A DNA stretch of 64,000 nt, from assembly GCA_003141555.1 (NCBI GenBank), contig PLMN01000025.1:62001-126000 (forward strand), in the 5' to 3' direction. Source of the DNA: Candidatus Aminicenantota bacterium. GTDB taxonomy: Bacteria; Acidobacteriota; Aminicenantia; Aminicenantales; UBA4085. Positions 34,746 to 46,778 of the stretch are shown one piece after another; position 1 is the first letter of the stretch, and each line of letters begins with the position of its first letter. Below the pieces are notes generated by a model. That model did no database searches and was not told where the DNA came from. It saw nothing but the letters and a program-made list of their open reading frames with translations. The translations under genes were made by a program, and so were the position numbers.

Positions 34746-34763
34746 TCTGCCGGTTTTTGCTCT

Positions 34764-34836
34764 GGGCGATTAACTCAGTGGCCAGAGTGCTACCTTCACA
34801 CGGTAGAAGTCACAGGTTCAAATCCTGTATCGCCCA
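34764..34836 (+). tRNA. tRNA-Val (anticodon CAC)
   Basis: A complete 73-nt cloverleaf. Acceptor GGGCGAT pairs with ATCGCCC, D stem ACTC/GAGT, anticodon stem CTACC/GGTAG around loop TTCACAC, five-base variable loop, and T stem ACAGG/CCTGT with loop TTCAAAT. Anticodon CAC reads GTG valine codons. Discriminator A follows, and CCA is not encoded. Confidence 0.96.
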
Positions 34837-34983
34837 TTCCTTCCTTATCAGCAGCTTGCGCAATCCCGTGGCCCGGCAAAATGAGAGTTGCGTCCAAATT
34901 GCGCCCAAATATAGATTTGGAAGCTGAACGATCAGGTCAGGCCGATGTTGGTCGCTAAGAAAGGAAGCAGCCGCCCGTCCCGC

Positions 34984-36468: not shown

Positions 36469-36613
36469 GATGCCCTCCCTGGAGGCCGCTTTTTCATTTC
36501 TCCTCCCGAACGTCCTTTCGGCTCCAACTTTATCCTCGGCCGATCGGGGCTGTCAACGCCGCGAACGCCTTCCGTCAAGGGCGGGCCTCCCGATTCGTCT
36601 CCGGCCGATCGAA

Positions 36614-36659: not shown

Positions 36660-37496
36660 GTGAGAACAACCGGCCCCCAAAAAGTCGTCCTGGCCAAGAA
36701 CAGCGGCTTTTGTTTCGGCGTCAAACGAGCCGTGGACTTGGCTCTCCGGACCCAAGATCGCGTCTTCACCTTGGGGCCCCTGATTCACAATCCTCAAGTC
36801 ATCGCCTATCTGGAAAGGAAAGGCATCCGGGCCATCGAGTCCCTCGATCGGATCAAGGACGGGAAGCTCATCATCCGGGCCCACGGCATCCCGAGATCCG
36901 TCATCGCCGAGGCGGAGAGGAAAGGCCTGGCCGTGATCGATGCGACGTGCCCGTTCGTGAGGAAGGTGCAGCGGACCGCGGAATCGTTGAGCCGGCAGGG
37001 ATATCAGGTCGTCATTTTCGGCGAGGCCAACCATCCCGAAGTCGTCGGGATCGCCGATCGGGTCAAGAACCCGATCATCGTTGAAACGGCCGGCCACGTC
37101 CGAGCCCTCGGCCGGTTCGACAAGATCGGCGTCGTGGCCCAAACCACGCAATCCGTGGAGAGCTACAAGGCCATAGTCCGGGAATTGAAGAAGCACGCGA
37201 AGAGTGTCAAAGCGGCCGATACCATCTGCAACGCCACGAAAAGGAATCAAGACGCGGCCACGTCCTTGGCCAAGAATGTCGACCTGATGATCGTGGTGGG
37301 CGGGCACAACAGCGGCAATACCCGCCGGCTCGCGAGCCTCTGCTCGAAGATCGTCACGACCAAGCATATCGAGATCGCCGGGGAGCTCAAGCCCTCCTGG
37401 TTCCGGCGCGCGGCGATCGTCGGCGTCGCCGGAGGCGCGTCCACTCCCGATTGGATCCTCCGGGACGTCATCGAGAGCATCGAACATGAATTTTGA
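36660..37496 (+). CDS. ispH: 4-hydroxy-3-methylbut-2-enyl diphosphate reductase
   Basis: 278 aa with a GTG start. The three cluster cysteines are in KNSGFCFGVKRAV, DATCPFVRKVQ and DTICNATKRNQ. The substrate motifs RAHGIP, TTQSVE, GGHNSGNT and AGASTPDW-like GGASTPDWIL are intact. IspH makes IPP and DMAPP in the last step of the MEP pathway. The next gene, a prenyl diphosphate synthase, overlaps it by 11 nt, so the two are coupled: precursor formation and chain elongation. It opens the ether-lipid region. Confidence 0.96.
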   Translation: MRTTGPQKVVLAKNSGFCFGVKRAVDLALRTQDRVFTLGPLIHNPQVIAYLERKGIRAIESLDRIKDGKLIIRAHGIPRSVIAEAERKGLAVIDATCPFVRKVQRTAESLSRQGYQVVIFGEANHPEVVGIADRVKNPIIVETAGHVRALGRFDKIGVVAQTTQSVESYKAIVRELKKHAKSVKAADTICNATKRNQDAATSLAKNVDLMIVVGGHNSGNTRRLASLCSKIVTTKHIEIAGELKPSWFRRAAIVGVAGGASTPDWILRDVIESIEHEF

Positions 37497-38565
37497 AAAG
37501 AGCTTGAGCGCGTACCGGGCGATCATCGATTCCAGGATCGCGGACCTTTTTGACGAAAAGATCCTCGCCTCCCGGGATTTCATCCGGTTCAGCTATGCCC
37601 GCCTCAAGGATTTCGTCCTCCGGGGAGGTAAAAGGCTGAGGCCCGTCATGACGATCATGGCCTTCAAGGCCGTGAGCGACCGCCCCGAGGAGGAGATCTT
37701 GCTGCCGGCCGTCGGAATCGAGCTCTTCCACAACTCGTCTCTGATCCACGACGATATCATGGATGAGGACAGCCGGAGGCGGGGACGGCTCAGCATGCAC
37801 ACGCGCTTCGAGCGCTTTTTTTTGAAGGGCCACGCCGACCGGGAAGATGCCGGACGGATGTTCCAAAAAATGTCCGAGCGATTCGGCGTTTCGATCGCCA
37901 TCTTGATGGGAGACATCCTCTACGCGATGACCGAAGGCTGCCTCATCGATTCGCCCTTCGCCGCGGGAAGGATCCGCCGGGCTATGGAGGTTCTCCATCG
38001 CGCGTACCGGGAGATCAGCGAAGGCCAGATGCTGGACATCCTGTCGGAGCTGGATGGCGACCTCGCCGAGGGCGATGTCCTGCGCCTGATCGAATTGAAG
38101 ACGGCCCGACTGTTCGCGGCCGCGATTCAAATCGGGGCCATCCTGGGCGGCGCGCCCGTGCCCACGCGGAACGCCCTGTCCGCCTACGCCCTCGACCTCG
38201 GGATGGCCTTCCAGTTGCAGGACGACCTCCTCGACATCGGCCCCGGGCGCAAAGGACGCATGTATGGCTCCGATCTCCGGCGGGGGAAATCCACGTTATT
38301 GACGTTGAAAGCGCTCGAGACGGCAAGTCCCGGGCAGGCCCGGATCCTTCGTTCAGCCCTCGGCAACGGCCGGGCCGATCGGGGAACGATCGAAGCCGCC
38401 GTCGGCGTCCTTCATGCCACGGGCGCCGTCGATTGCGTGAAAAAGCTGGCGGTCCAAAAGCTCGGCGAAGGACAGGCCCATCTCCGGGACCAGGCGCTCT
38501 CGCCGGAAGCGGGCAAATTTTTCGACGGTCTCGCCGATTTCATGGCCCGGCGACGGATGCCCTGA
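37486..38565 (+). CDS. Polyprenyl (geranylgeranyl-type) diphosphate synthase
   Basis: 359 aa. First aspartate motif DDIMDED near 87 (HDDIMDEDSRRRG), upstream GGKRLRP and second motif DDLLD near 245 (FQLQDDLLDIGPG) are intact, as is GKSTLLTLKAL. The DDIMD form is shared with archaeal geranylgeranyl diphosphate synthases. About 20 extra residues sit after the first motif (FERFFLKGHADREDAG). Ser is five residues before the first Asp, where a Phe limits product length in some archaeal enzymes, so a product longer than C20 cannot be excluded. It should feed the two prenyltransferases encoded just downstream. Confidence 0.9.
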   Translation: MNFEKSLSAYRAIIDSRIADLFDEKILASRDFIRFSYARLKDFVLRGGKRLRPVMTIMAFKAVSDRPEEEILLPAVGIELFHNSSLIHDDIMDEDSRRRGRLSMHTRFERFFLKGHADREDAGRMFQKMSERFGVSIAILMGDILYAMTEGCLIDSPFAAGRIRRAMEVLHRAYREISEGQMLDILSELDGDLAEGDVLRLIELKTARLFAAAIQIGAILGGAPVPTRNALSAYALDLGMAFQLQDDLLDIGPGRKGRMYGSDLRRGKSTLLTLKALETASPGQARILRSALGNGRADRGTIEAAVGVLHATGAVDCVKKLAVQKLGEGQAHLRDQALSPEAGKFFDGLADFMARRRMP

Positions 38566-38633
38566 GGACTTCGCCGCCCGGGTTTTTTGGGACCGGCCCT
38601 TCCCGATCACCCCTCAAGGCAAAGGAGTGGGGA

Positions 38634-39452
38634 TCACCAGGATCCCGCGATGAACGCCAGCAAAACGACGAGCGTCGCCGCCTTGACCACCTTCTGCGCC
38701 TTCCCGGGCTGCAGGAATAACGACGTCCCGAGGGCCGCCGTCGCGAGCAGGATCAGCGCCAGGTAAGGACCATCCATCGGCCGGACGGCGACAGGGAGGA
38801 AGATCGCGAGGACGGCCGGGAGGACGCAGAGACCCGCGACGGTCCGGGCGCGCTTGACGCCCCATCGGATCGGCAGGGTCGAGGCTCCCGAGCGGCGGTC
38901 CCCCTCGAGATCCTCGATGTCCTTCAGGATCTCCCTCGTCACCATGATGAAGAACGCGCTCGCGGCTAGGACGACCACGTGGAGATCGATCCGGCCAAGA
39001 ATCGCCCCCGCGAAAAGGAAGACCGAGGACGTCATCCAGGCGACGAGGAGATTGCCGAAGAGATGCATCGCCTTGGAATACCGGGCGTAGACGATCAGGA
39101 GACACGTATTGAGGACGGCCAGGGCCAGGGCCCCGGCGTTCAGGAAGGCGCTCAAGCCGAGGCCGCCGCAAAAGAGAAAGGCCGCAAAAATCAGGGCCCT
39201 GTGCGGCGCGACCCGTCCCGAGGGGATGGGCCGGTGGGGCTTATTGACCACGTCAATCTCCCGGTCGAAATAATCGTTGAGGGAGTTCCCTCCGCTCAGG
39301 ATCAGGAACGCGGCCGCGGCCCCGAAGAGGACCGCCCGGCCGGGCCCAAACGAGCGCGTCACCGAGTAGGACGTGACCAGGATCGAAACGACGGCGATCA
39401 GACCGTTGGGGACCCTCATCAGCCCGAGATATCCCCCCAAAGTCAGGAGCAT
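38634..39452 (-). CDS. UbiA-family prenyltransferase, probable digeranylgeranylglyceryl phosphate synthase
   Basis: 272 aa, about eight to nine membrane helices. The first Asp-rich motif is in NSLNDYFDREIDVVNKPHRP followed by IPSGRV, the form typical of archaeal digeranylgeranylglyceryl phosphate synthases. The second is KDIEDLEGDRRSGASTLP. This enzyme adds the second prenyl chain by an ether bond to the product of the neighbouring GGGP synthase, which ends 5 bp upstream in the same operon. Menaquinone and heme UbiA homologues are the alternative, but the context argues against them. Inner membrane. Confidence 0.85.
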   Translation of the reverse strand: MLLTLGGYLGLMRVPNGLIAVVSILVTSYSVTRSFGPGRAVLFGAAAAFLILSGGNSLNDYFDREIDVVNKPHRPIPSGRVAPHRALIFAAFLFCGGLGLSAFLNAGALALAVLNTCLLIVYARYSKAMHLFGNLLVAWMTSSVFLFAGAILGRIDLHVVVLAASAFFIMVTREILKDIEDLEGDRRSGASTLPIRWGVKRARTVAGLCVLPAVLAIFLPVAVRPMDGPYLALILLATAALGTSLFLQPGKAQKVVKAATLVVLLAFIAGSW

Positions 39453-39457
39453 GGGCC

Positions 39458-40210
39458 TCAGGATCGCGCGGCGGGCCGGGCGCCGTGGATGGCCTCGATG
39501 ATCGATCGGAGCTTCGCGATATTTCGTTCGGCGATGGTTCCCGTGACGATGATGTCGGCGCCGGCCTCCGCAATCCTCCGGGCCTGTCCGGCCGTCCGTA
39601 TGCCGCCGCCGACGATCAGGGGTCCATGGATCTTAGCCCGGACCGCCCGGATCATCGGCAGGGGAACGGGCCTATCGGCGCCGGAGCCGGCTTCGAGGTA
39701 CGTACAGCCCATGCCGAAATAGCGGGCGGCCAGGGCGTAGCTGGCCGCCTTCGCGGCATCGCGGGGCCCGATCTTGTCCAGCTTGACCCGCCTCTCGATC
39801 GTCGTCGGCCGCCGGCTCGTCCCGATGACGATATAGGCCATCGAGATGGGACACAGCTTTATCCGCTCGATGAACGGAGCCGCGCGGACCTGTTCCCGGA
39901 TCAGGACCCGCGGGTCGTCGGCGTTGAGAAGCGACATAAAAAAAATGGCGTCGGCCCGCTTCGAAACGGCGGCCGCCGAATTCGGGAACAGGATGACGGG
40001 GAGTTTGACGGCGTTCTTGAGGGTCTTGACCGTCGCCTCGAGCAGCCGGGGGCTGAAGGAGCTCGAGCCGCCGACCAGGGCGGCATCGGTCCCGAACCGC
40101 TCGCTCATCTTCGCTCGGCGGGCCAGCTCGTCCAGGGTCTGCCGGTCCGGATCGAACAGGGTGAAGTGGAGGACGCGGCCCGTCCTCGTCAGCAGGTCAT
40201 CGATCAGCAT
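39458..40210 (-). CDS. Geranylgeranylglyceryl phosphate synthase (GGGPS/PcrB family)
   Basis: 250 aa. TIM-barrel motifs match the family: FTLFDPDRQ near 17, ALVGGSSSF, LPVILFPNSAAAVSKRADA, FFMSLLNADDP, ISMAYIVIG, TYLEAGSGADRPVP, PLIVGGGIRT and GADIIVTGTI. It forms the first ether bond between glycerol 1-phosphate and a C20 prenyl diphosphate, the committed step of archaeal lipids. Bacillus PcrB uses longer chains. The ATG at 40210 follows GAGAGGGA and overlaps the end of tes by 14 nt, so it is translationally coupled. Glycerol-1-phosphate dehydrogenase is not in the window. Confidence 0.9.
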   Translation of the reverse strand: MLIDDLLTRTGRVLHFTLFDPDRQTLDELARRAKMSERFGTDAALVGGSSSFSPRLLEATVKTLKNAVKLPVILFPNSAAAVSKRADAIFFMSLLNADDPRVLIREQVRAAPFIERIKLCPISMAYIVIGTSRRPTTIERRVKLDKIGPRDAAKAASYALAARYFGMGCTYLEAGSGADRPVPLPMIRAVRAKIHGPLIVGGGIRTAGQARRIAEAGADIIVTGTIAERNIAKLRSIIEAIHGARPAARS

Positions 40211-41717
40211 GGTCCCTCTCGCGGATCGACGCCGGCGGCCGCCCATAGGCCGTCTCGATCTCCTGGCGATATCCCAGATTGTTGTAAGAGCAGAACGGGA
40301 TGAGCCGGCCGTCGGGCGTCGCGTAGTGGATGACGCAGCGCCGGACCCGTTCCCTATCGAAATTGTGGGCGTCCATGAAATGCATGCAGGAGAACAGGAT
40401 CACCCGGGAATGAAGATCGCTCAGGGCTTCGAACGTGCCCTTGCCCAGGAGGGGCCGAAGATGCTTCCTCAGCAGGCCCGGTTTGACGTGCCGGAGCGAG
40501 GCCATCAGCCGCAGCCTCGCCGCGCCGCGAGACCCCCGGGAAGCCTCGCGCTGGACCGCCGCCATGGAACGCAGGAATTTGTCGATCTTGACGAAGCGGC
40601 CGATCGGGACCAGCGTCCCCCGGTCGGGAACGAGATACGTCGCCGCGCCGCAATGGGGATGGGCCGTGAACTCGGGATGCCGCTCGTTCATCAACGCCCC
40701 GACGGCCCGGGCGATCGGGACTTCGCAGGGCACGGGATAGAAATCCGCGGCCCGGATCCGGCCGCCCGTCTGCCGTTCGACGCAGGCCAGGAAGTCGGGG
40801 ATCGTCAGGCGCCGCGCGGCGAGGTCGTCGTCCGGGACGCGGCCGGCGAACGACAGCGGCTGGACGTTGACGCAGCGGACGACGTCGAAGTTGTCCGCCG
40901 CGAATTTAAGGATGTCTCCCAGCTGGCCGGTGTTGACTCCTTTGATCAAGGTGACGACGAGTACGACGCTCCGGAGTCCCGCCCGGCGGCAATTTTCGAT
41001 GGCCGCCCGCTTCACGGCCGCGAGATCCCGGCCCCGGATGAACGTCGAGACGTCGCTCGCCAGCCCGTCGAACTGGAGGTAGAGGGTGTCCATCCCGGCG
41101 GCCATGAGCGTCCGGACATAATCGACGGACTCCGCCGGCCTGATCCCATTGGTATTGACCTGGATGTTGAGAAAGCCGGCCCGCTTGGCCATCCCGACGA
41201 GCTCCGGGAGGTCCTCCCGGAGCGTCGGCTCGCCGCCGGAAAACTGGACGGCCGGGGCCGGGACGGGCCGGTTGCTCCTCAAATTGGCGAGCATGGAGGC
41301 GACTTGCTCGCGGGTCGGCTCATAGACGGACCCGGTCGCGGCGGCATTGGCGAAACAGACGGGGCATTTGAGGTTGCATCGGTTCGTGACGTCGACGATC
41401 CCCAAATCCGTCTCGGACAGGTGGCCCGGGCAGAGGCCGCAATCGAGAGGGCATCCCCGGCGTTCGGCGGTCCGGGGATTCTCCACCCCTCGGCCGTCGG
41501 CCTGGAAGCGCCCGGCCCTCTCGAAGGATTCCTCGTCGGACCAATAGACGTCCCGGAACGTCCCATGGACCGGGCATTCTTTCTCGATGAAGATCCGGCC
41601 CCGTTCGGAGAAGATCCGGGCCTCGACCCTCCGCCGGCATTCCGGGCAGATGGAGGACGTGATCCTTATCGATTTGCCGTCGTCCGACATTCCATGATCC
41701 TTCGCAACGGTCCCCAT
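40197..41717 (-). CDS. tes: Tes-type radical SAM tetraether lipid (GDGT) synthase
   Basis: 506 aa. The layout matches archaeal Tes: an N-terminal cysteine-rich ribbon (SSICPECRRRV, KECPVHG, DVYWSDEE), a [4Fe-4S] motif in GCPLDCGLCPGH, then the radical SAM motif CNLKCPVC with AAATGSVYEPT and FSGGEPTLREDLP. At the C-terminus FSCMHFMDAHNFDRERVRRC and PDGRLIPFCSYN give the last auxiliary cluster cysteines. Tes joins isoprenoid chain ends head to head, making macrocyclic archaeol and tetraethers. The start at 41717 follows GGAGG. It heads the operon tes-GGGPS-UbiA. Confidence 0.9.
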   Translation of the reverse strand: MGTVAKDHGMSDDGKSIRITSSICPECRRRVEARIFSERGRIFIEKECPVHGTFRDVYWSDEESFERAGRFQADGRGVENPRTAERRGCPLDCGLCPGHLSETDLGIVDVTNRCNLKCPVCFANAAATGSVYEPTREQVASMLANLRSNRPVPAPAVQFSGGEPTLREDLPELVGMAKRAGFLNIQVNTNGIRPAESVDYVRTLMAAGMDTLYLQFDGLASDVSTFIRGRDLAAVKRAAIENCRRAGLRSVVLVVTLIKGVNTGQLGDILKFAADNFDVVRCVNVQPLSFAGRVPDDDLAARRLTIPDFLACVERQTGGRIRAADFYPVPCEVPIARAVGALMNERHPEFTAHPHCGAATYLVPDRGTLVPIGRFVKIDKFLRSMAAVQREASRGSRGAARLRLMASLRHVKPGLLRKHLRPLLGKGTFEALSDLHSRVILFSCMHFMDAHNFDRERVRRCVIHYATPDGRLIPFCSYNNLGYRQEIETAYGRPPASIRERDHADR

Positions 41718-41734
41718 CGGACCTCCGTTTTTTT

Positions 41735-41764
41735 AGTCTACTATGGGTTCCTCCCGGCCATCAA
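41735..41764 (-). promoter_or_regulatory. Candidate promoter of the tes-GGGPS-UbiA operon
   Basis: On the minus strand: TTGATG (41764-41759), 18-bp spacer, TAGACT (41740-41735). Both boxes are imperfect. Leader of about 11 nt with GGAGG. Confidence 0.4.
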
Positions 41765-41804
41765 GCGGAAAGCCACGGCCTCGACCGGGAACGCCGCCGG
41801 CCAC

Positions 41805-41833
41805 TTGATAAGGTGTCGCGGCTCTGCTATAGT
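41805..41833 (+). promoter_or_regulatory. Sigma70-type promoter of the ferredoxin-GGR gene
   Basis: TTGATA (41805-41810), 17-bp spacer, TATAGT (41828-41833). Leader of about 95 nt to the GTG at 41935. Confidence 0.7.
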
Positions 41834-41934
41834 CCGGGCACATCGCACATCCCCGGGGGGTGCGGTCCCGCGAACGCCAAGATCACTCTTTCTGCATGAA
41901 ACCGGCGGAGCCCGCATGAGGCCAAGGAGGCAAG

Positions 41935-43374
41935 GTGCACAGCCTCAAGGAGACGGGATTGAAAGAACGACTCAGGATCGACCGGGGAAGCTGCTGCTAT
42001 TGCGGAGCCTGCGTTGGGATCTGCCCGGCCGACGCCCTCGTCCTGAGGGAGACCGAGCTTCGCCTCGACGAGGAGAAATGCACGCTCTGCCGCTTCTGCA
42101 TCGTGTTCTGTCCCGTCGAGGCCCTTTCCGTCGCTCCGGAGCAGTCCCTCCCACCCGCCCGGGAAGCGGACCTCCTGCGGGCCGACGTCGTCGTCGTCGG
42201 GGCCGGACCGGCCGGAAGCATCTGCGCCAGGGACCTGGCCCGATCCGGGGCCAAGGTCCTGGTCGTCGACAAGAAGCAGGAAATCGGAACCCCGAAACGG
42301 TGCGCCGAGGCGGTCGAGCCCGACACCTTCGAGCTCGCGGGAATCGAACCCCATCCCCTCTGGCTGACGAACCGCATTCGGACGGCGGTCCTCTACGCCC
42401 CCAACGGAACCCCGGTCAGCTTCGGAGCCCGATCTTTGAAGGAGAACGGATTCATCATCGAGCGGAAGATCTTCGAAAAACATCTGGCCAAGGATGCCAT
42501 TCTGGCCGGGGCCCAGTATATGCTCAAGACCACGGCCGTAGACGTGATCAAGGACGCCGGCCGGGTCAAGGGCGTGGTCGTCGAACAGATGGGCGGGCGG
42601 AAGAAGATCATGGCCGAGATCGTCATCGCCGCGGACGGGGTGGATTCCATGATCGCCAAGAGGGCCGGCTTGAAGACCGTCAACCGGCTGAAGGATTTCA
42701 TGAGCTGTTTCCAATACGAGATGGCCGGAGTCCGCCACGCGGATGAGCAATCGATTTATCTGTACTACGGGAACGCCGTCGCCCCGGGAGGATATGTCTG
42801 GCTGTTCCCCAAGGGAAACACCCTGGCCAATGTCGGCGTCGGGATCAAGCCGTTGAAGAAAGAGGGCAAAACCCCCAAGGCCTATCTGGATGAATTCATC
42901 GCCGGGCATCCCCGGATCTTCGAGAACGCCTCGGCCGTCGAATTCAACGGGGGCGGCGTGCCCGTTCATCGAACGGCCGAGACGCTCGTGGCGGACGGCC
43001 TGATGGTCATCGGGGACGCCGCCCAGCTCGTCAATCCCATCACGGGAGGAGGCATCCGGCTGGCCATGATCTCGGGCCGATTGGCCGCCGACGTCGCGGC
43101 CCGGGCGCTCCGAAAAGGGGATGTCGGCCGAAGATCCCTCTCCGATTACCAGAGGCGATGGGACGCCGGGCACGGCAAGCTGATGGACAAGATGCTCAAG
43201 CTGCAGCGCTTCACCGATCGGCTCGCCGATGACGAGCTCAACCGGCTCGCCGAGATCCTGACGGGCCCTGTCCTGGAAGACCTGGCCGAGGGCCGATTCC
43301 TCGGATTCCTCAAGCTCCTGATGAAAAAAGCGCCCGCTCTCGCGCCGTTCGCGGTGAAATACCTAAGATCCTGA
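41935..43374 (+). CDS. Geranylgeranyl reductase fused to an N-terminal 2x[4Fe-4S] ferredoxin
   Basis: 479 aa, GTG start after AAGGAGG. Residues 14-70 are a ferredoxin with two clusters (CCYCGACVGICP and CTLCRFCIVFCP). The flavoprotein follows: FAD site VVVVGAGPAGSICARDLA near 87, PKRCAEAVEP, AADGVDS and GDAAQLVNPITGGGIRLAM, all typical of geranylgeranyl reductases. These enzymes saturate the double bonds of archaeal lipid chains. In Methanosarcina the reductase works with a separate ferredoxin; here the donor is built in. It is divergent from tes, across a 217-bp promoter region. Confidence 0.92.
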   Translation: MHSLKETGLKERLRIDRGSCCYCGACVGICPADALVLRETELRLDEEKCTLCRFCIVFCPVEALSVAPEQSLPPAREADLLRADVVVVGAGPAGSICARDLARSGAKVLVVDKKQEIGTPKRCAEAVEPDTFELAGIEPHPLWLTNRIRTAVLYAPNGTPVSFGARSLKENGFIIERKIFEKHLAKDAILAGAQYMLKTTAVDVIKDAGRVKGVVVEQMGGRKKIMAEIVIAADGVDSMIAKRAGLKTVNRLKDFMSCFQYEMAGVRHADEQSIYLYYGNAVAPGGYVWLFPKGNTLANVGVGIKPLKKEGKTPKAYLDEFIAGHPRIFENASAVEFNGGGVPVHRTAETLVADGLMVIGDAAQLVNPITGGGIRLAMISGRLAADVAARALRKGDVGRRSLSDYQRRWDAGHGKLMDKMLKLQRFTDRLADDELNRLAEILTGPVLEDLAEGRFLGFLKLLMKKAPALAPFAVKYLRS

Positions 43375-43467: not shown

Positions 43468-43496
43468 TTGACATCACCCGGGGCCGACGCTATGAT
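43468..43496 (+). promoter_or_regulatory. Sigma70-type promoter of the HlyD/MacB-like operon
   Basis: TTGACA (43468-43473), 17-bp spacer, TATGAT (43491-43496). It contains the apparent ATG at 43492, which therefore cannot be a start codon, and supports initiation at 43519. Confidence 0.85.
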
Positions 43497-46013: not shown

Positions 46014-46778
46014 CTAGAAGAGGGAGAAGGCCAGGCCGGCCGACACAAAGCTCCCCTGGGAGACGGTGGCATCTAAAAATAGGGCGAGCTTCGGGGCGAT
46101 TCGAAAGCGGACGTCGATCCCCAGGACGGGGGAGAAAATCCAAGAGGGCACATCCAGGCCCAGGCTCCGGATCTCATCGATCGTTTGATTCAAGGTTCCT
46201 GAAAACTTGAGATCGCCGGCCGGCGTCGTCACGACCGCCGTCTGATCCATGGAGATGTCTCCCTGAAAAGGCAAGGCCATCAAGCCGGCCTGGAGCGAAA
46301 GCTCCACGGGCCCGGCCGAGAGCGGCGTCCATCGCCCCAGGAGGGAGAGGGCGAGCCCATTGAGGCGGGTCGTGCCCTGGCCGCGCCCATCCACGGCGAC
46401 CAACGGGAATCCCAGGATGTCGAGGGATGTCGCCACGGACACGGAATACGGCACCCGAAAGTCGAAATAATCGCCTTCCAGCCCGGCTGACCAACGGCTA
46501 TCTTCAAAACGGTACCAGAGCGCCGCCGAAAAGAAATGGCCGGACGAGGAGAGGTTCACGCTCGAAACGAGCGGAGTCAAAAAGGCCTCGGAGAGGGCCG
46601 CGCCGACCGAATTGCTGAACCCGTTTCTGATCAAGCGCTCGCATTCGGTCTCGACCAGGGGCCGAAGTGGAGACAGGCTCCATCCGCCGTAAGACACTTG
46701 GATCTCGAGCGGCCGGCTCTCGGCGAGGGCCGCGCCCGCCAAGGCGATGATCAGGATCGGTATCCCTCTCGCTTTCAT
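46014..46778 (-). CDS. Predicted outer-membrane beta-barrel protein
   Basis: 254 aa. Signal peptide 1-19 (ending ALAES). The remainder alternates polar and hydrophobic residues in strand-like blocks (SAALWYRFEDSRWSAGLEGDYFDF, LNGLALSLLGRWTPL, GIDVRFRIAPKLALFLDATV) and ends in ...AGLAFSLF with the terminal Phe expected of an outer-membrane barrel. No family was recognised. It is convergent with the exporter operon, 11 bp away. The mRNA appears nearly leaderless from an extended -10 box. Confidence 0.7.
   Translation of the reverse strand: MKARGIPILIIALAGAALAESRPLEIQVSYGGWSLSPLRPLVETECERLIRNGFSNSVGAALSEAFLTPLVSSVNLSSSGHFFSAALWYRFEDSRWSAGLEGDYFDFRVPYSVSVATSLDILGFPLVAVDGRGQGTTRLNGLALSLLGRWTPLSAGPVELSLQAGLMALPFQGDISMDQTAVVTTPAGDLKFSGTLNQTIDEIRSLGLDVPSWIFSPVLGIDVRFRIAPKLALFLDATVSQGSFVSAGLAFSLF

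Follow-up and report, generated by a model that had tools for sequence, protein, structure and literature searches.

A 64,000-nucleotide stretch of the genome of a Candidatus Aminicenantota bacterium (contig PLMN01000025.1, positions 62,001 to 126,000, or G000:C18:62001-126000 in our genome set; here called the window) carries a compact gene cluster predicted to direct archaeal-type ether lipid synthesis. The core of the cluster consists of four genes, which encode a tetraether lipid synthase (Tes), a geranylgeranylglyceryl phosphate synthase (GGGPS), a UbiA-family prenyltransferase, and a geranylgeranyl reductase (GGR), and the four recur together in a second genome of the same order (G264). 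We consider it probable that the cluster is an established pathway, acquired horizontally from an Altiarchaeota-like archaeon, that makes isoprenoid ether lipids for a hybrid membrane. The host genome (G000; 3.79 Mb in 33 contigs) is 97.4% complete and 2.3% contaminated. A first-pass annotation had placed six genes of such a pathway at 36660-43374 (IspH, prenyl synthase, UbiA, GGGPS, Tes, and GGR); the positions of all six frames were verified, and their families were assigned with NCBIfam and Pfam models.

The tes gene (40197..41717, minus strand) encodes a radical SAM protein that matched NCBIfam model NF045702 over its full length with 606.6 bits (cut-off, 450). Its closest solved relative was 7tol, a glycerol dialkyl glycerol tetraether (GDGT)/macrocyclic archaeol synthase (496.9 bits, residues 18 to 494). 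Tes proteins contain a rubredoxin-type CX2CX20CX2H motif, an N-terminal Cys3-His cluster, and a radical SAM CX3CX2C motif (PMC9433317). Corresponding ligands are present in the window protein as C24, C27, C48, and H51; C89, C93, C96, and H99; and C114, C118, and C121, and the same ligands are present in G264; those of the N-terminal cluster were counted by aligned columns, and H99 appears, on our reading of the alignment, to be its histidine. In the C-terminal region, where Tes carries an Fe4S4 cluster with a labile Met ligand (Met439), M445, M448, and C461 are kept in both proteins and may include counterparts of the cluster ligands. Since 28 other Tes proteins of the phylum share the ligands of the first three sites, these are uninformative about substrate. 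Since Tes acts on saturated lipids (PMC9433317), its linkage to a GGR fits, and the window Tes is predicted to join saturated isoprenoid chains.

The GGGPS gene (39458..40210, minus strand; alternative start at 40246) matched TIGR01769 with 214.2 bits (cut-off, 161.55), and the best solved relative of its product was 6nke (184.6 bits). An alignment of 80 archaeal GGGPS proteins has 47 columns with 90% or higher conservation, of which the window protein keeps 45 and the G264 protein keeps all 47; as an enzyme of the archaeal type, the window GGGPS may use glycerol-1-phosphate (G1P). The UbiA-family gene follows (38634..39452, minus strand). The best NCBIfam model for its product was the digeranylgeranylglyceryl phosphate synthase (DGGGPS) model NF009521, the best solved relative was the DGGGPS 6m31 (137.8 bits, versus 51 for chlorophyll synthase), and both Asp-rich motifs are present, NDYFDREID at residues 59 to 67 and DIEDLEGD at residues 178 to 185.

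The GGR gene (41935..43374, plus strand) encodes a reductase fused to a ferredoxin. It scored 256.8 bits against TIGR02032 (cut-off, 158.8) and 86.5 bits against PF22578 (cut-off, 27), and the best solved relative was 3oz2, a digeranylgeranylglycerophospholipid reductase (221.7 bits). Two N-terminal Fer4 cluster motifs lie at residues 20 and 49; the ferredoxin region spans residues ~14 to 64, and the FAD reductase begins at residue 83. The motif PGGYVWLFP at residue 284 agrees with PxxYxWxFP, which we take to be the family motif. The score against the digeranylgeranylglycerophospholipid reductase equivalog NF041160 was below the cut-off (257.6 versus 780 bits), and the exact substrate was therefore not assigned. 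In an archaeal locus on a contig titled Thermoplasmatota (L087, positions 1-2879), a ferredoxin-like frame is followed directly by genes for GGR, DGGGPS, and GGGPS. This ferredoxin-like frame (36 residues, one motif) ends at the GGR start and is possibly cut, as the contig begins just ahead of it; the L087 GGR is 51% identical to that of the window. By analogy with the L087 gene order, the bacterial protein may derive from a ferredoxin and a GGR that became joined. The GGR of Methanosarcina, produced in E. coli, was more active with the neighboring ferredoxin (PMC9385802).

On the minus strand tes, GGGPS, and UbiA form one run, in which tes and GGGPS overlap by 14 nucleotides (nt), given a GGGPS start at 40210 (an ATG with AGAGGG 3 nt ahead of it), and GGGPS and UbiA are spaced by 5 nt; tes and GGR are divergent and 217 nt apart. 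In G264, which belongs to the same order and another family, tes-GGGPS-UbiA is likewise contiguous, and the ferredoxin-fused GGR stands at the opposite end, convergent. All frames are intact in both genomes, and the G264 cluster sits on a 553-kb contig. Identities between the two sets are 63% for Tes, 61% for GGGPS, 50% for UbiA, and 54% for GGR, and the G264 Tes (619.3 bits) and GGGPS exceed the same NCBIfam cut-offs. Because four genes recur together in G264, the arrangement is not a chance pattern, and tes-GGGPS-UbiA plus GGR is the core of the cluster. A glycosyltransferase family 2 gene adjoins GGR in G264 (L069, 15395-16471), possibly for a glycolipid head group.

The cluster is rare. 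We searched 396 genomes of the phylum, a sample of a larger group, and 94 of the order. PF01884 matched in 24 of the 396 and exceeded its cut-off in 8, with scores above 100 bits only in G264 (153.7) and the host genome (139.9); the remainder comprised G286 (66.1 bits) and others at 25 bits or less. With the GGGPS protein as the query, 13 of the 94 order genomes matched, and only the same two exceeded 33 bits. Matches of 19 to 32 bits in the order and phylum covered mainly the later TIM-barrel part (residues ~140 to 240) and were treated as noise. The GGGPS-family protein of G286 was set aside as a further instance, since the six window proteins had no match at 60 bits in the 19 kb around it (L071, G286:C33:41001-60000), and it was left out of the GGGPS tree. 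Cluster-type GGR was likewise found among the order genomes only in the host genome (892 bits) and G264 (475 bits); other GGR matches reached ~114 bits or less and were mostly paralogues of ~30% identity, including one from the host genome itself. Tes exceeded its cut-off in 38 of the 396 genomes; this set includes 28 genomes of the order, of which two (G000 and G264) were Tes positive.

Phylogenetic analysis, which the first-pass annotation had proposed as a check, placed GGGPS and Tes with archaeal enzymes. Of 194 GGGPS relatives in named genome contigs, found with two peptide patterns that were built from the window and G264 proteins and may therefore have missed GGGPS of other bacteria, the best 80 were all archaeal titled, with Altiarchaeota first, at 48 to 52% identity. 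In the GGGPS tree (82 rows), the window and G264 proteins pair with support of 100/99 and join ten Altiarchaeota and one unnamed archaeon with 100/99. In the Tes tree (58 rows) they pair with 100/100 and join the Tes proteins of three Altiarchaeota and of that unnamed archaeon with 98/96; 28 Tes proteins of other genomes of the phylum (L002 and L005-L031, from the 36 such genomes over the cut-off) form a separate clade (100/99). Rows L176, L178, L179, L181, and L182 of the Tes tree come from archaeal genomes. Both trees were midpoint drawn. Left out were duplicates of the window and G264 loci, two short Tes sequences (L177 and L180), the remaining eight Tes-positive genomes of the phylum, and its many proteins of ~320 to 350 bits. 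The ancestry of GGGPS and Tes is, on these trees, archaeal. Among solved structures, 4jej, presumably a Flavobacterium protein, scored 125.5 bits against the window GGGPS, and the best structures, which we take to be archaeal, scored 157 to 185. A Tes above 400 bits was present in four of the ten genomes that contain L073-L082, and the other six had none above 80. The Altiarchaeota GGGPS neighborhoods examined held no other cluster gene, so the clustering perhaps arose in, or en route to, bacteria.

GGR leans archaeal with lower support than Tes or GGGPS. The window and G264 reductases pair with 91/94 and join L087 and L164 with 90/90, inside a nine-row group (100/100) that takes in archaeal sequences and a single paralogue from the order (L213, from G403), with the other 17 order rows across the branch. 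A DGGGPS tree had long branches and one of our own sequences entered twice (L229), and no origin was drawn from it.

The two remaining genes of the block stand beside the core and are possible members of the cluster. The first encodes IspH/LytB, the enzyme of the last step of the methylerythritol phosphate (MEP) pathway (36660..37496, plus strand; 289.6 bits against TIGR00216, with an NCBIfam cut-off of 187.85). It overlaps by 11 nt a trans-prenyl diphosphate synthase gene (37486..38565, plus strand), whose product scored 183.3 bits against PF00348 (cut-off, 27), has DDIMD as its first aspartate-rich motif (FARM), and reached no NCBIfam cut-off. In type I geranylgeranyl diphosphate (GGPP) synthases the residue five before the FARM is aromatic; the synthase beside ispH has Ser there. 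The host genome has three PF00348 proteins, with Ser (beside ispH), Ala (on C4), and Tyr (on C9) at this position. It has been described as a chain-length site (PMC9385802), so the synthase beside ispH need not make C20, and its chain length was left unassigned. Neither gene is in the G264 cluster, and we rejected both as certain members. Another ispH-synthase pair occurs in G146 (34% and 31% identical), a genome with no GGGPS match, so the pairing is perhaps an order-wide theme and not an archaeal import. The six-gene pathway of the first-pass annotation was thus supported for the core; for ispH and the prenyl synthase the links to the lipid pathway are weak.

The proposed route follows from what these enzyme families do. 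GGGPS would combine the C20 prenyl diphosphate GGPP with glycerol phosphate to give geranylgeranylglyceryl phosphate, the UbiA enzyme would add the second chain, and bacterial CdsA/PgsA-type enzymes would probably complete the polar head. The ferredoxin-GGR fusion would saturate the chains, its own Fe4S4 relay replacing a separate ferredoxin, and Tes would join the ends of the saturated chains by C-C bonds to give macrocyclic archaeol or GDGT; beside ester lipids, this product would form a hybrid membrane. The PlsY acyltransferase is present in both genomes (171.8 bits in the host genome and 165.9 bits in G264), and the ester route should thus run in parallel. The product would most likely be saturated isoprenoid diethers joined into GDGT beside ester lipids. 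Mixed or membrane-spanning lipids, as the first-pass annotation had suggested, may occur in this bacterium. We infer that the genes are expressed, as well as the order of the steps, the head-group enzymes, the product, and the enantiomer of the glycerol phosphate.

Several observations weigh against an acquired pathway of this kind. The first-pass annotation had made a G1P source and CDP-archaeol synthase (CarS) tests of the pathway, and both outcomes were unfavorable. The host genome gave no match to Fe-ADH_2 (PF13685, for EgsA/AraM), a model that gave a match in 13 of 14 controls; G264 has a partial match of 23.7 bits, below the cut-off of 28. PF01864 for CarS also gave no match in the host genome, which this search covered, and matched in 7 of 14 controls, the four archaea among these. 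The host genome therefore falls short of a complete archaeal ether lipid pathway at these two enzymes. The UbiA proteins of the window and of G264 missed the NF009521 cut-off of 296 (243.6 and 211.1 bits), and we label the enzyme DGGGPS-like because its best model and best solved relative are nevertheless DGGGPS. The synthase beside ispH lacks the aromatic residue of type I GGPP synthases and is a doubtful source of GGPP. Composition was flagged for the G264 row in both the GGGPS and Tes trees and for the window row in the Tes tree, and these trees hold no GGGPS from the Fibrobacteres-Chlorobi-Bacteroidetes (FCB) group. Both genomes are split into many contigs. Its rarity, together with the probable loss of a cluster-type GGR from a related genome (G457, below), marks the cluster as dispensable. 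Finally, engineered GDGT synthesis harms E. coli (PMC12042123).

We did not count the missing G1P dehydrogenase and CarS as a refutation, because both gaps are also reported for four Cloacimonetes genomes, whose GGGPS and DGGGPS enabled E. coli to produce archaeal-type lipid (PMC7852524); G1P dehydrogenase orthologues are listed for Cloacimonetes in PMC6431249. Moreover, bacterial CdsA can stand in for CarS, and E. coli makes G1P-based lipid without AraM (PMC7852524, PMC13400652).

Archaeal contamination of a bacterial bin, or an assembly chimera, would account for the archaeal ancestry of GGGPS and Tes, for the flank order seen in no relative, and for the absence of the cluster from nearly all relatives, including G451 of the same genus (98% complete, 7% contaminated), which lacks GGGPS and cluster-type GGR. 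The first-pass annotation had raised this question, and we found no sign of contamination. The same cluster lies on the 553-kb contig of G264, and the ferredoxin-GGR fusion is found in both bacteria. The mean GC content at third codon positions (GC3) is 0.834 for the cluster and 0.846 (standard deviation [sd] 0.056) for a comparison set of 19 other long frames that we chose from the window, at least two of them without a Pfam match at 1e-10. The GC content of the cluster is host-like, compared with 0.39 to 0.57 for ten archaeal loci, nine from Altiarchaeota and one unnamed. Family members also carry genes from each of the two flanks. On the left, the WD40-like gene occurs on a G458 contig, where ispH is not its neighbor; the DNA similarity stops at position 36507. 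On the right, in G457, a member of another genus of the family, a 73-bp, 31-residue GGR relic (L199, or G457:C143, 3092-3184) lies between DUF1848 and HlyD genes, is 67.7% identical to the window GGR, and scored 66, whereas the best of 300 shuffles scored 30. Such a GGR thus probably stood beside HlyD in an ancestor within the family and was later lost in G457; the relic bears on GGR only, not on the remaining cluster. Altogether the evidence argues for old transfer, and we give contamination or chimerism a negligible probability. A second candidate relic, in G328, was rejected, since its DNA scores of 16, 16, and 24 did not stand out from shuffled maxima of 26, 30, and 29 (15 of 500 shuffles reached 24). 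The DUF1848-LptB segment of G328:C2 and G457:C143 faces HlyD in the opposite orientation to that of the window; the region has thus been rearranged.

The chief doubt about function is whether the genes make membrane tetraethers at all. The pathway could yield no more than diethers or a minor ether lipid outside the membrane, like the PcrB product of Bacillus, while Tes acts on the cell's own fatty-acyl lipids to give diabolic-acid or branched GDGT (brGDGT)-type chains. Tes-like enzymes are used otherwise in the phylum, where 36 of the 38 Tes-positive genomes lack a strong GGGPS match; PMC8941075 proposes that bacterial Tes makes brGDGTs, and MjTes produced in E. coli carried bacterial phospholipid (PMC9433317). 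We nevertheless think this outcome rather unlikely, since the window Tes falls outside the clade of 28 phylum Tes proteins and beside Altiarchaeota, and its frame overlaps that of GGGPS in a linkage kept in G264. The 28-member clade itself, from genomes without a strong GGGPS match, comprises candidate brGDGT-type synthases. A silent cluster in decay, soon to be lost, is another reading, which would suit the patchy occurrence (2 of 94 order genomes) and the relic in G457; it is made quite improbable by frames that are all intact, by the GGGPS columns kept at ~60% mutual identity between the two genomes, and by Tes ligands intact in both. Least plausible of the functional alternatives is that the enzymes run in reverse or salvage environmental archaeal lipids. 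GGR, which saturates, and Tes, which forms C-C bonds, are anabolic enzymes by family, and both are linked with GGGPS in both genomes. A catabolic role has been suggested for bacterial GGGPS and DGGGPS without a G1P dehydrogenase (PMC6431249), and the host genome gave no match for that enzyme; even so we regard a reversed or salvage pathway as very improbable. An acquired, biosynthetic pathway remains our preferred explanation. A more specific proposal, which we put forward tentatively and with less than even confidence, is that a natural bacterium here has a hybrid membrane with isoprenoid tetraethers and no known G1P dehydrogenase, drawing on a hidden bacterial G1P source or else on glycerol-3-phosphate (G3P), which would give isoprenoid GDGT a mirror-image backbone of bacterial stereochemistry.

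Parts of this system have precedents. GGGPS and DGGGPS are known in bacteria (PMC6431249), GGR with GGGPS and DGGGPS is known in Cloacimonetes (PMC7852524), and Tes is known in bacteria (PMC8941075, PMC11868695). Cloacimonetes and other FCB bacteria likewise combine GGGPS, DGGGPS, and GGR with bacterial lipid synthesis, including the four genomes without G1P dehydrogenase and CarS (PMC7852524). The window differs from them in its linked Tes, an enzyme that PMC11868695 did not find in its Black Sea Cloacimonadota, in its ferredoxin-fused GGR, in a GGGPS that branches with Altiarchaeota (in a tree without FCB rows), and in a host that probably lies outside the FCB group. With the archaeal Tes, or GDGT/macrocyclic archaeol synthase (GDGT-MAS), route (PMC8941075, PMC9433317), it has in common a score above the Tes cut-off, 7tol as best relative, and conservation of the metal ligands that were compared; it differs in its bacterial host, the absence of an egsA or CarS match, and clustered genes unlike the Altiarchaeota loci examined. 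Other Tes proteins of the phylum, proposed brGDGT enzymes (PMC8941075), belong to the same radical SAM family and keep the ligand columns but form their separate clade, mostly without strong GGGPS. PcrB, the heptaprenylglyceryl phosphate synthase of Bacillales, shares the PF01884 superfamily, and the window GGGPS scored 28.7 bits against the model of this synthase (cut-off, 260), versus 214.2 for TIGR01769. Engineered E. coli with archaeol and GDGT (PMC12042123) is also a bacterial GDGT route, whereas the window route is a natural one with linked genes, whose composition and divergence mark it as old. Table 1 of PMC6431249 covers Acidobacteria and Aminicenantes, and single archaeal genes from these groups may already be recorded there. 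In the literature searched, which excluded most subscription papers and bioRxiv and was screened at the level of abstracts, we found no report of bacterial linkage of GGGPS, DGGGPS, GGR, and an archaeal-type Tes, nor of a ferredoxin-fused GGR.

The surroundings of the block are bacterial, as the first-pass annotation had stated, with cpn60, TonB receptor, AcrB, HlyD, MacB, and an ABC ATPase (annotated there as LptB) among the window neighbors. A sigma70-like candidate promoter with an extended -10 precedes GGR (41805..41833, plus strand); the site, TTGATA-17-TATAGT, agrees with the consensus at 10 of 12 positions and was identified by consensus match only, and such sites numbered 3 in the 7.2 kb scanned, versus 1.0 (sd 1.0) in shuffles. 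A strong sigma70-like site (TTGACA-17-TATGAT, 43468-43496) lies 3' of GGR, close to where the HlyD gene begins; a G328 stretch resembling it scored 34, not above the best of 300 shuffles. The frame at 46014-46778, which has no Pfam match, was set aside as a cluster member because 71%-similar DNA is also present in G328, which is cluster-free; a relative of it (31% identical) adjoins tes in G264 (L069, 10000-10776), and it is probably a general order gene. A tRNA-Val (CAC) gene at 34763-34837 lies 1.8 kb left of the six-gene block, and the DNA around it recurs in relatives; in G451, the gene that follows this tRNA is instead one for a large outer membrane receptor.

The lineage of the window thus appears to have taken from archaea, and retained, a route to the carbon skeleton of archaeal lipids that includes the tetraether step. 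It adds, after Cloacimonetes, a further case of GGGPS without a known G1P dehydrogenase. As a candidate for an archaeal-bacterial hybrid membrane, so far obtained only by engineering, it brings the hybrid-membrane question within reach of tests in nature, and isoprenoid GDGTs, used as biomarkers of archaea, might have bacterial sources as well.

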